Made by a program: the position numbers and the translations under genes. Below the pieces are notes generated by a model that did not search any database, was not told the DNA's origin, and worked only from the letters and a program-made list of their open reading frames with translations. Of a stretch of 52,126 nucleotides of DNA, positions 34,902 through 49,628 are shown one piece after another (positions within the stretch are counted from its first letter, which is position 1; each line of letters starts with the position of its first letter). The DNA is from Desulfuromonas sp. (GTDB taxonomy: Bacteria > Desulfobacterota > Desulfuromonadia > Desulfuromonadales > Geothermobacteraceae): assembly GCA_002868905.1 (NCBI GenBank), contig PKUA01000056.1, positions 1 to 52,126 on the forward strand. Direction: 5' to 3'.

Positions 34902-35261
34902 ATGTCTCAATGTCTGTATGGTCGTATCCGCCAGCACCTTGGAGAAGTAATAGGAGAATTGGCTCGGCAACGAGAGAGCTAGGTGTTGGAAGGTCATTTG
35001 TGCGCTGACCATGTTCGAGTGTATATCCCGATCTTGCTGAAGTATGCGGTTGCTCAGGTCGTCGGTTACATAAAAGGGAAGAGCGCAATTCAGGTCGCCC
35101 GGACGTTTGCTTGGCGCACCCGGAACTTCACCGGGGAGAACTTTTTGGCAAGACGCTACTTTGCCTCGACAGTAGGGCGCGACGAAGAGGTGATCCGAAA
35201 GGACATTCAGGATCAGGAGCGTATAGATTGCAAAGTCGATCAATTGAACCTGCTCAGCTAG
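34902..35261 (+). pseudogene. Degenerate IS200/IS605-type transposase TnpA
   Basis: Translation of this frame gives a recognisable IS200-type Y1 transposase: LYGRIRQHLGEV near the start, EGHLCADHVRV, VVGYIKGKSAIQVART, NFLARRYFASTVGRDEEVI and QLNLLS at the end. It is broken in several ways. An in-frame TAG lies at 34980-34982, the first 35 or so residues are missing, the HUH metal motif reads HVR in place of HVH, and the catalytic Tyr expected in RKYIQDQ is Asp. A CCGCT-TTG-AGCGG hairpin at 35293-35305 resembles an IS200 right end. The element is inactive and no partner TnpB gene is present. Confidence 0.85.
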
Positions 35262-35389
35262 CCGCCTTCAGGCGACCCAGGGTTTGAGCATGCCGCTTTG
35301 AGCGGTTCACCCATAGAGACCCCTGCGTTCCCGGGGCATACTCACTGCCTGGCCGAATTGCTTTAGCAAAACCAAAGTAACCCGTTGCG

Positions 35390-45661: not shown

Positions 45662-45939
45662 GGCTGTTGCCTTTCGCAAGGTGCTAAAATACCTGAAACG
45701 TGAAACTCTAATGAGGGATATTACCATGGGTATGGGCTTTCAAAATAGTGAAATAATTTTCACTAGTATAGATGGGCCCATACATGTTGCTGTGGAAACG
45801 GATTTGGAAGGGAAAAGGAAGGGCCGCACCCTTGGAAGGGTACCTCCTTTGTGTATCTTGGTGCCGAAGTCGACCTCAGGTTCTCCCTCGAATACCTCGC
45901 ATAAAGATTTCTAAAGTCCAAGTTCAGCGGAAACTTACC
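45662..45939. other. Intergenic stretch with palindromes
   Basis: No convincing gene is visible. It holds AGTGAAA-TAAT-TTTCACT (45747-45764), a perfect 7-bp inverted repeat, and ACCCTT-GG-AAGGGT near 45829-45842. Either could be an operator or a short hairpin. A 92-codon plus-strand frame overlaps the zinc-ribbon gene start and is not called. Confidence 0.45.
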
Positions 45940-45969
45940 TTGACAATAGTGATTAGGGACCACCATACT
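45940..45969 (+). promoter_or_regulatory. Promoter of the structured RNA region
   Basis: TTGACA at 45940-45945 is a consensus -35 box; CATACT at 45964-45969 follows after 18 bp. Transcription would start near 45977, ahead of the series of hairpins. Confidence 0.45.
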
Positions 45970-46012
45970 TAAATTATTTTAAATAGAATGCTGTTATGTT
46001 TTTGCCCTGAGG

Positions 46013-46212
46013 GGGCCTGACTTCACGTAGCTTTATGCGGTCGCAGACCGAACACCAAGGCTTTAGCCGTGGATGAATGAGCAAGGTTCTCGACCGTCGC
46101 TGTCAAGGCAAGTGACGGTCGGGAAATCAGATTCGAAGGCTCTGTGGTGTTAACTGATTGCTTATCGCAATTAGTTTGTAGAACATCAAGAACCCCGGGT
46201 TTACCCGGGGGT
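46013..46212 (+). ncRNA. Candidate structured noncoding RNA with five hairpins
   Basis: Five stems follow one another without any coding frame: CGGTC-GCA-GACCG (46038-46050), CCAAGGC-TTTA-GCCGTGG (46055-46072), CGACCGTC/GACGGTCG (46091-46121), AACTGATTGC-TTATC-GCAATTAGTT (46152-46176) and CCCCGGG-TTTA-CCCGGGG (46193-46210). It lies between a sigma-70-like promoter and the ECF sigma gene. The TTTA-loop hairpins resemble those at ends of IS200/IS605 elements and in their guide RNAs, but no TnpB is present. It may be a relic, a leader element or an independent RNA. Confidence 0.45.
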
Positions 46213-46298
46213 ATCTATTCACTCAGTACAATCCTTATCTAGTCACGGTTTTTTTGTTTCTAATCGGTGAATGGATTTATCAGCCTAGTTAATGTTCC

Positions 46299-46925
46299 AT
46301 GCAATGGGAAGGATTCAAATCAACTGATATTTTTGAACCGATTCGCCCAGAGCTCCCACTCATGGATAACAAAATGACCAATGATCTGCATGTTGCGTGT
46401 CTGAATGGAATTTCTACAAGAGGCGATGATGAGGCCCTTAAAACTCTTTACGACATGCTTCATAAGAAGGTCTACTTTTTCCTCTTCCGGATTTTGGGGG
46501 AGAAGGAGGCTGCCGAAGACATTATGGTCGAAACGTTCACAGTGATCTGGAAAAGTGCGGGGAGTTATTCGGGTAGGTCGAGCGTTTCGACCTGGATCCT
46601 GGGTATCGCTCGCAACCTTGCCCTGGATGAATTAAGGAAGCGTAAGTTCCACGATTGCGTTGATGACCATCCGCACATTGCAGGCGGGGAGATTCCTTCC
46701 ATGGAACAGGCTGATCGATCTCGGGTGATCCGGGTGGCGCTTGATAGACTCTCCCCAAAACACCAAGAGGTGATTGACCTGGTTTATTTTCATGAGCTGA
46801 ACTATCCCGAAGTTTCAGAATTGTTAGGAATTCCCGTCGGAACTGTTAAAACTCGGATATTTCATGCAAAAAATGCAATCCGTGCGGCGCTTGCAAGTTT
46901 GAAGGTCGGTCAGAATGATCTATGA
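46299..46925 (+). CDS. ECF-type RNA polymerase sigma factor
   Basis: A sigma-70 family factor of 208 residues from ATG 46299. Region 2 covers about residues 45-110 with VYFFLFRILGEKEAAEDIMVETF and TWILGIARNLALDELRKRK, and region 4 about 145-200 with LSPKHQEVIDLVYFHELNYPEVSELLGIPVGTVKTRIFHA. No extra C-terminal domain is present. The start is uncertain: no good ribosome site lies before 46299, and ATG 46362 or 46374 would drop 21 or 25 residues. It overlaps the following anti-sigma gene by 11 bases, the usual sign of a sigma/anti-sigma pair. Confidence 0.9.
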   Translation: MQWEGFKSTDIFEPIRPELPLMDNKMTNDLHVACLNGISTRGDDEALKTLYDMLHKKVYFFLFRILGEKEAAEDIMVETFTVIWKSAGSYSGRSSVSTWILGIARNLALDELRKRKFHDCVDDHPHIAGGEIPSMEQADRSRVIRVALDRLSPKHQEVIDLVYFHELNYPEVSELLGIPVGTVKTRIFHAKNAIRAALASLKVGQNDL

Positions 46926-47666: not shown

Positions 47667-49628
47667 ATGCCGGGTTCATGGCTCACGTTCTGGCTGACTA
47701 TCATGCCCTGTCTCTGCCTATGGTCCATCGTATTGCCCACTTCGCCGAGTCGCGCCGATATAGACGTCGCTTTGGCTGAAGGGATGGTCGAGTTTACTTT
47801 TCCGGGACATGAAATGGAAATTGCCGAAAAAAAGCCGGTGGTCCGTATCGCAACCGGTATCCCGACATCTGAGGAGAACCTTCTGGTCCTGCTCGACGGA
47901 GTCGACATAACCGGCACCCTGAAATATTCGACAAACGGTTTTGAGTACCATCCCGTGGAGGCCCTGGGCGCTGGTGAACATCAGTTGCTTATCACTTTGT
48001 ATCTGCCGAGCGGGGAAGAGGTTGAACGGGAGTTCAGTTTCATTACTCATCATCAATGTTTTTTCAATGAACTGACCAGCGACAACAATCTCTCTGTTGC
48101 TTATGAGCAGTTGTTGAAGAAATCGGACGAACTCAGCGAGATTCCCCACCGCAATCTCAACGCCAATTTCAGTAGTATCTCGACCTCCAAGAAAGGGCCG
48201 TGGCAGGTCGGGGTCCGGACCAACCTTCGGTTCCTCGATCGCAGTGCACCGGTTTTCTACCCTGAGGAGAAGGGGATCGACCTGATTGACTACCTTGTGA
48301 CAGGTCAATATGTGGGTGAAACGGTTCGGGTGCTGGCCGAAACCGGTGACCTCAGCCTGCAGGAGACGCAAAATACCGTGATGGGGCTGGCGCGGCGCGG
48401 CGCCCGGGTCGGATTGGGTTACCAATCGGCGGCCCTGAACGCGTTTGTCGTTCAAAGCGACCAGGTGTACGGTTTCGACAGCGGCACCGGTCTCGATTTC
48501 GACGAAGATGACCACATCTACGGTGTCTCTGGTGAAGTCGGCCTGTTTGAGGACCGGCTCAAACTCAAGACAATTTATGTCGACGGTGGCGAAGAGGGGA
48601 GCTCTTTCGGAATTTATACCGATGGCGGCCTGCGCGAGGGGGACGTCCTCGGGTTCGTGGCCCAGGCCCAGTTGTTGGAGGGGAGATTGTCCATCGACGG
48701 CGAGTATGACATCGCCGAGTTCGATGGCGACACCTCCGATAAGTTCGGGTCCGAAACCGACCGGGCCTGGAACGTGAGGGCCAGCGGTTATCTCGACAGT
48801 TTCAATTACCAGGCCCTCTACGAGTATGTCGGCCCCGATTATGAGGTTGTGGGGAACCAGAACCTCCAGAGGGACCGCGAGGGCTTTAATTTCATGGCGG
48901 GCATGAACCGGGACGTTCACGCCATCAACCTGTCGGTTGCCCGCTACGAGGACAATGTCGACGAAGATGACCTGTTCCCGCAGGTCGTCTCATCGATGGC
49001 GTCGATTGATTATTCCCTGGCCAAATTTCCGACTCTTCCCATGGGTCTTAACTACCAGAAGTCGATTCTGGACACATCGATGGTGCCTGAATTCGGTTTC
49101 CCGCTGAAAACGCATACCGATGTGGTCGGCGCCAGGATCAATTACCTGCTCGACAAATGGAACTTCGGTTTCAACGTCAGTTATTCCAAGCAGGATGACA
49201 AGACACCGTTCGATTACGACTCATCTGCGCAGATGTACAACCTGGCCCCGGTCTACTACTCGGAATGTTTCACCTTTGCTCCAAACCTTGCCTTCAACCG
49301 CTCAACGAACGAAACGACGGATGTCGATACCGACACCTATACCATCACCCTCGATGTGCGAGGGAGCCTGTTTCAGCAAGCGGTTTCCTACGAATTAGCC
49401 GGGACTTTCAACCGAATGGAGATGAGCGACGGCGGTTTCGAGATGGAGACCATCAACAGCAACGCCCGGATCGCCTATCATTTTCTTCAGGAATGGACAG
49501 GTTTTTTGAACCCTACGGTGGGGTTGAGGGGACTCTATAACAGGACGGACGACAAGGTGCTCGACCAGGACAATGACGAATTTGCTCTCCTGCTGGCGGT
49601 TTCGTCCAGCATGGGATTCTCGTTTTAA
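47667..49628 (+). CDS. Predicted outer-membrane beta-barrel protein
   Basis: A 653-residue exported protein. The signal peptide ends near residue 30 (PTSPSRA). Residues about 31-130 form a soluble beta domain. From about 170 onward, short amphipathic strands alternate with acidic turns (for example AARVGLGY-type strands, RAWNVRASGYLDSFNYQALYEY, HAINLSVARYEDN), and the chain ends in an aromatic strand, VSSSMGFSF, with C-terminal Phe, the hallmark for insertion by the BAM machinery. A strong GAAGGAGG precedes the ATG. It follows the anti-sigma gene by 113 bp and precedes the Ig-like protein by 12 bp. It may be a porin or an export channel for that neighbour. Confidence 0.8.
   Translation: MPGSWLTFWLTIMPCLCLWSIVLPTSPSRADIDVALAEGMVEFTFPGHEMEIAEKKPVVRIATGIPTSEENLLVLLDGVDITGTLKYSTNGFEYHPVEALGAGEHQLLITLYLPSGEEVEREFSFITHHQCFFNELTSDNNLSVAYEQLLKKSDELSEIPHRNLNANFSSISTSKKGPWQVGVRTNLRFLDRSAPVFYPEEKGIDLIDYLVTGQYVGETVRVLAETGDLSLQETQNTVMGLARRGARVGLGYQSAALNAFVVQSDQVYGFDSGTGLDFDEDDHIYGVSGEVGLFEDRLKLKTIYVDGGEEGSSFGIYTDGGLREGDVLGFVAQAQLLEGRLSIDGEYDIAEFDGDTSDKFGSETDRAWNVRASGYLDSFNYQALYEYVGPDYEVVGNQNLQRDREGFNFMAGMNRDVHAINLSVARYEDNVDEDDLFPQVVSSMASIDYSLAKFPTLPMGLNYQKSILDTSMVPEFGFPLKTHTDVVGARINYLLDKWNFGFNVSYSKQDDKTPFDYDSSAQMYNLAPVYYSECFTFAPNLAFNRSTNETTDVDTDTYTITLDVRGSLFQQAVSYELAGTFNRMEMSDGGFEMETINSNARIAYHFLQEWTGFLNPTVGLRGLYNRTDDKVLDQDNDEFALLLAVSSSMGFSF

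Follow-up and report, generated by a model that had tools for sequence, protein, structure and literature searches.

The window is the whole 52,126-nucleotide stretch analysed here, positions 1-52,126 of the forward strand of contig PKUA01000056.1 of Desulfuromonas sp. (GCA_002868905.1). It contains an array of hairpins ahead of a gene which, as a preliminary description of this DNA had proposed, encodes a sigma-70 family protein of ECF layout (Pfam Sigma70_r2 and Sigma70_r4_2). Behind the sigma gene lie a 212-aa frame, by impression possibly an anti-sigma factor, and then a 653-aa protein (47667-49628), neither of which gave a Pfam match at E 0.001. Features of the locus, with LE and RE denoting the left and right ends of the element, are as follows:

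46032-46036, + strand: TTTAT, target and putative left cleavage sequence, in the flank (cleavage position taken from IS608-type elements)
46037-46218, + strand: whole element, 182 nt (LE 45/47 and RE 30/32 matches to the query end sequences)
46038-46050, + strand: stem 1, CGGTC-gca-GACCG, 5 bp, inside the LE
46050-46054, + strand: GAACA, putative LE counterpart of the AAGAA foot
46055-46072, + strand: LE subterminal hairpin with TTTA loop, CCAAGGC-TTTA-GCCGTGG, 7 positions including one A-G mismatch
46073-46081, + strand: ATGAATGAG, constant sequence after the LE hairpin, included in the LE search pattern
46087-46125, + strand: hairpin A, a longer stem whose core is the 8 bp described earlier
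46128-46144, + strand: hairpin B, a weaker stem overlooked earlier
46152-46176, + strand: hairpin C, AACTGATTGC-ttatc-GCAATTAGTT, 10 pairs, one of them G-T
46188-46192, + strand: AAGAA, 5' foot of the RE hairpin, presumed guide (positioned as IS608 guides are)
46193-46210, + strand: RE subterminal hairpin with TTTA loop, CCCCGGG-TTTA-CCCGGGG, 7 bp
46214-46218, + strand: TCTAT, presumed right cleavage sequence, the RE end common to relatives
46299-46925, + strand: ECF-type sigma factor gene, alternative start ATG 46362, outside the element

All five consecutive stems that had been described at 46013-46212 were found by direct reading of the sequence, and the element itself is shifted slightly from that span. 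Relatives vary at the site of stem 1, where the form is either shorter (GTC-gaa-GAC) or longer (GTCGC-gaa-GCGAC). No long reading frame crosses the region, as had also been claimed. Folding of 45998-46230, which also draws on bases beyond the element boundaries, gave -89.8 kcal/mol and z -4.07 on the + strand, with 1 of 200 dinucleotide shuffles as good, and z -3.40 on the - strand, with 0 shuffles as good.

A distant search of a plasmid collection by blastn returned 25 records. In Piscirickettsia plasmid sequence, 51 nt matched window positions 46034-46084 at 90% (E 2e-9), and a two-piece Alteromonas match (E 0.3) bracketed an annotated IS200/IS605 tnpA; the order in this Alteromonas locus (L006) is TTTA-loop LE hairpin, ATGAATGAG, tnpA, AAGAACCCCGGG...CCCGGGG hairpin and ATCTAT. 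Since both ends stand in a single 182-nt element without tnpA, and LE and RE are paired in relatives, the TTTA hairpins are IS200-type ends and the window copy is transposase-less. The earlier proposal that the two TTTA-loop stems are IS200/IS605 terminal hairpins was thereby borne out, the stems matching the LE and RE of full-length relatives. Read directly from the sequence, the left tip (GCGGTC) and the right tip (TCTAT) are not inverted copies of each other, and target duplication is absent, the left TTTAT not being repeated in the right flank. At 182 nt the element is too short for a transposase and has no frame of note inside; there is no tnpA between its LE and RE, and it is therefore not an autonomous IS200. 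The boundaries at 46037 and 46218 were placed by the presumed cleavage sequences, TTTAT at the left end and TCTAT at the right. Taken together, the hairpin array is very probably a non-autonomous IS200-type element of the PATE kind, occupying 46037-46218 on the + strand; the window copy is decayed, single-copy and without a transposase gene, and is ordinary in kind.

Relatives were collected with the LE pattern, which matched 87 stretches in a collection of genome contigs. When LE and RE were paired, the full-length copies measured 534-569 bp and the short ones 127-185 bp, apart from one of 311 bp; the many LE stretches at contig ends or with no RE found were left out of the analysis. Full-length relatives overall measure 534-575 bp, carry tnpA and leave no room for tnpB. 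Within the same order, 8 of 136 genomes have the LE pattern at up to 3 mismatches, and six of these 8 carry 182-185 bp copies of the window layout, the window's genome being included in both counts. Widening the LE search to 277 genomes of the class gave no further carriers; among 395 genomes drawn from the wider phylum the pattern was found at up to 2 mismatches in 5, again including the window's (matches L156-L160). The 182-185 bp layout is represented by seven sequences from six genomes (the window, L101, L103, L106, L109, L111 and L112), the other six being 64.0-86.8% identical to the window. Left out were L100 (G007), which has a degenerate left end and no RE found, and L104 and L110, which contig ends truncate. 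Three genomes, G031, G076 and G079, have full-length elements of 569-575 bp, with a stop in the tnpA of G079; an additional copy in G079 was measured at 472 bp. The full-length copy in G076 (L108) shares the window's order of hairpins B, C and RE, and its protein, a 142-aa TnpA, is recognised as an IS200/IS605 transposase (NCBIfam NF033573).

By record title, the hosts of short copies include a Desulfuromonas MAG, other deltaproteobacterial MAGs, a Desulfobulbaceae MAG, Zixibacteria, Nitrospinota and gammaproteobacterial MAGs, and short copies also occur in plasmids of Piscirickettsia and Vibrio. A phage search gave two weak matches and nothing useful, an E. coli search gave none, and scanning of viral contigs with the LE pattern gave 0 matches. 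A deltaproteobacterial MAG (G288; L014 / L138) has 43 left-end matches at up to 3 mismatches, mostly AGCCACGGCTTTAGCCGTGGATGAATGCG and about 12 of them at contig starts, apparently a multicopy cousin family. A Zixibacteria MAG (G282; L029, L031, L082, L085, L086, L094 and L096) has 10 LE matches, several copies being closely alike short hairpin-A elements cut by contig ends, as expected of a recently spread element.

Two of the inner hairpins can be traced to the full-length parent. Hairpin C is the 3' untranslated hairpin of that parent, AACTGATTGC..GCAATCAGTT lying between the tnpA stop and RE in L108 and L113. Hairpin B is, by its place and likeness, a putative remnant of the tnpA 3' end, the stop region of tnpA in L108 reading CAGCACC-GTGA-GGTGCTGTGA; this hairpin was placed partly by eye and is absent from the best fold of L042, L103 and L112.

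Hairpin A has a different distribution. It is missing from 8 of 8 full-length copies printed, in which tnpA starts at most about 30 nt after the LE and leaves no room for it. A long stem between LE and hairpin B is found at the same place in 20 of 23 distinct short elements, carried by deltaproteobacteria, Zixibacteria, Nitrospinota and Gammaproteobacteria; the three short elements with no hairpin A are L024, L062 and L076, and L062 and L076 look like plain internal deletions. Folding of the inner region gave z of -4 or lower in 17 of the 20 hairpin-A elements, with weak folds in L074 (z -2.45), L103 (-1.52) and L042 (-0.18); the hairpin A stems of L074 and L042 have seven other mismatches each. 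The + strand folds better than the - strand in 22 of 23 short elements, the exception being L013. Simple deletion of tnpA does not explain hairpin A. The open-licence PMC literature yielded no account of PATEs with an extra internal hairpin or of these particular elements, and the conserved additional hairpin seems to be new on top of a known class.

Pairing was assessed in an alignment of the seven 182-185 bp copies against a structure of 48 pairs. In this alignment 94.0% of cells are paired against 89.0% after shuffling, 10 pairs have double changes against 5.0, and covariation is 0.230 against 0.128, and for none of the three did any of 500 shuffles score as high; further pair types number 24 against 20.4, a value reached by 26 of 500. 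These shuffle figures are inflated and are not probabilities, because the sequences are related and the structure was taken from them. Slid versions of the structure, used as a control, pair in 33-42%. By hairpin, the pairs with double changes are divided as 7 in A (of 17 pairs), 2 in C (of 10 pairs, with changes on both sides), 1 in RE and 0 in each of LE and B; in the structure given by RNAalifold itself, 9 of 53 pairs have double changes. All bases of ATGAATGAG but the first are invariant in the same alignment. Compensatory changes in homologues, a check set out in the preliminary description, are thus present in the inner hairpins A and C.

Mismatch types were counted with a strand-neutral inverted-repeat search in which all mismatches are scored alike. 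In hairpin A of 20 elements G-T was found 39 times and A-C once, and per-group maxima over nine author-made sequence groups came to 14 and 1, with three groups having neither; shuffled sequences gave 343 G-T against 251 A-C. The LE and RE hairpins together gave 7 against 6 in 25 short copies and 0 against 0 in 24 long copies, and comparison of 39:1 with 7:6 by Fisher test gave P 0.0005, uncorrected for relatedness. The excess of G-T over A-C argues that what is maintained in hairpin A is a single-strand structure, on the + strand only, where it probably acts either in the form of RNA or in the DNA being transposed. DNA also tolerates G-T, and TnpA would likewise read its hairpins on the + strand, so the two forms are inseparable here; the G-U pairs and the contrast with LE and RE lean slightly towards RNA.

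Searching of the window against Rfam at the gathering score, the covariance-model check set out earlier, gave no match, and hence no known RNA family at the element. At relaxed E-value, four weak hits over 45700-46500 were all below gathering and none lay over the element, and 19 relative loci gave only SRP RNA and a tRNA beside L108. Of the earlier idea of a new RNA class, then, the lack of an Rfam match and the compensatory changes in A and C stand in its favour, while selection on transposing single-stranded DNA would look similar. Tentatively, hairpin A (with B) may be a structured RNA module of a cross-phylum lineage of transposase-less IS200 elements, acting as RNA. Under such a reading, which we hold with equal reserve, the stem sequence would turn over while its pairing, its place between the LE and the tnpA remnant, and one-strand G-U would stay; one conceivable role, no firmer than the rest, is that of a small RNA favouring capture of a host-encoded TnpA or tempering read-through. 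Were it so, such elements would be more than deletion debris.

Other explanations of the array place its function in the host or its origin in another system. The relic might have been exapted as a leader or regulatory RNA, transcribed from a promoter at 45940, whose hairpins or whose termination at RE would modulate the sigma mRNA; this is unlikely. The TTGACA promoter noted earlier does have a TTGACA / CATACT pair at 45940-45969, but such a site is at chance level (1 against 1.3 in shuffles). The RE hairpin (46193-46210) is terminator-like on both strands, with 3 such sites in the region against 0.9 in shuffles, but the GTATCTATTC that follows it is a poor T-run. In keeping with a leader, the structured + strand is the coding strand of the sigma gene, and Borrelia IS605 stem-loops were exapted as RNA with G-U pairs according to the excerpted account (PMC2775950). 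However, the layout recurs in other genomes between what appear to be unrelated flanks, and the best sigma matches in the family are 32-34% identical, with the element not found there; conservation together with the sigma gene is therefore not demonstrable, and these loci are too diverged for an empty-site comparison. The proposed control of the sigma factor thus gains no support, and the element probably lies before the sigma gene simply because it inserted there. A puzzling hairpin array ahead of a sigma factor is in this way replaced by a mobile relic of known kind, for which no regulatory role is to be assumed.

Derivation from a REP/REPIN-type repeat mobilised by a REP-associated TnpA (RAYT) is very improbable. 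Two other Y1_Tnp reading frames do exist in the genome, on contigs C64 and C3, but the parent TnpA scores as an IS200 transposase at 119 bits (cut-off 55) against 24.3 for the REP family (cut-off 80), the element is single-copy, and its feet are GAACA and AAGAA where the canonical REP foot, as given in the excerpted source, is GTAG/GTGG (PMC6006769). End hairpins of the GGCTTTAGCC style are common to the IS200/IS605 family, and a guide-RNA-like relic without TnpB, that is, a remnant of a TnpB guide RNA (omega/reRNA) whose tnpB was lost, had been considered on this ground; it can be set aside almost entirely, since the full-length relatives, at 534-575 bp, carry tnpA and could not accommodate tnpB as well, PF07282 (TnpB zinc-ribbon) has no match in the genome and Rfam gave none. 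The idea that the left end derives from a decayed 3' end of tnpB was dropped on the same finding that full-length relatives hold tnpA only.

For the non-autonomous IS200-type element, the following history would account for its parts. An ancestor probably lost most of tnpA. What remained was the LE hairpin, hairpin B (from the final bases of tnpA), tail hairpin C and the RE hairpin, and hairpin A occupies the former place of tnpA. Movement would depend on TnpA (a Y1 HUH enzyme) acting in trans: recognising the LE and RE hairpins of the + strand in single-stranded DNA, it would cleave at TTTAT and TCTAT, release the strand and insert it 3' of a further TTTAT. In the excerpted descriptions of IS608, TnpA binds subterminal hairpins on single-stranded DNA and 5'-foot guides pair with the cleavage sequences (PMC5934647, PMC6006769); the cleavage points and the mobilisation in trans proposed here are predicted on that model.

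The window copy looks old, because its LE stem has an A-G mismatch, it is single-copy in its own genome (an 84-contig assembly) and it has no near TnpA; with the stem mismatch and no partner, it presumably no longer moves. Searching of this genome with the TnpA of L108 gave a sole match at E 1e-5, 30% identical and with a stop (34923-35228), and so no obvious TnpA partner is left in the draft genome. The window has a decayed Y1 transposase at 34908-35228 (Y1_Tnp E 4.7e-17, one TAG), after which a CCCC...GGGG near 35320-35336 resembles, by eye, the RE of a different subgroup. Among the six same-order genomes with window-type copies, a close TnpA is present in only 2 (G076, 100%; G079, 86%, with a stop); matches in G038 are at most 36%, G008 has none, and G089 is not among the 40 genomes with a match. 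Copies number two or more in some relatives and differ in their flanks; L109 and L111, from the same genome, are 94.6% alike and likewise differently flanked. No empty site for L109 was found in 9 other genomes of the genus, the flank search returning its own two flanks and four other genomes that matched only bases 72-131 of the 400-base upstream flank.

Insertion sites were compared across the fetched loci, which hold 64 distinct insertions of relatives at TTTAT. A terminator-like hairpin with a T-run lies within 60 nt before the site in 27 of these 64; for the remaining TTTAT sites of these loci the figure is 156 of 2312 (odds ratio 10, P 1e-14), where the control sites are not confined to intergenic sequence and many insertions come from few genomes. 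When the comparison is restricted to sites whose last 12 bases have five T, 24 of 32 insertions and 41 of 331 others are terminator-like. Full-length and short copies of the IS200 group are often seen in the T-tract of an intrinsic terminator (e.g., L109 1420-1484, L016, L035, L051 and L082); the window copy is not in such a site. The apparent preference for terminator T-tracts seems to be new, no description of terminator targeting by IS200 having been found in the open-licence PMC literature. IS200 is listed, in the excerpted source, among families over-represented between convergent genes (PMC9208149), an excess that fits a position after terminators. If real, insertion into terminator T-tracts suggests a possible way for the IS200 group to land harmlessly after genes.

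Compared with known systems, the element is most like the PATEs of Haloquadratum and Halanaerobium, which, in the excerpted accounts, lack inverted terminal repeats and target duplication, have near-terminal palindromes related to those of IS605-type transposons, are too short for a transposase and have ends fused after loss of the core (PMC3119063, PMC7290912). Judged from its sequence, the element fits the published description as excerpted there apart from mobility. It differs in that the parents of PATEs are given in these excerpts as IS605-type and here the parent is a tnpA-only IS200, in that the Halanaerobium case is described as keeping a tnpB end, and in that most short copies here have the additional conserved hairpin A. 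With the IS200 group it shares LE and RE hairpins, constant ends and the TTTAT target, whereas tnpA is gone and hairpin A stands in its stead. The Salmonella IS200 5'tnpA small RNA is likewise, in the excerpted report, a structured RNA from the left part of IS200 (PMC12594629), although that RNA is described as the 5' part of the tnpA transcript, and the inspected full-length copies have no hairpin A, which is known from DNA alone. If hairpin A is real biology, non-autonomous IS200 elements can be selected, structured entities, comparable to SINE-like parasites in eukaryotes, and the LE pattern with hairpin A provides a sequence handle for testing. Finally, the IS605 stem-loops at Borrelia lipoprotein genes resemble the element in having no transposase, compensatory changes and G-U pairs, and were described by Delihas, in the excerpted text, as kept as RNA (PMC2775950). 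There, according to the same text, end hairpins took on a new role at gene 3' ends, whereas here the ends are still recognisable and it is the internal hairpin that shows G-U; within what these excerpts cover, the Borrelia stem-loops are the nearest precedent for a structure outliving its transposase.
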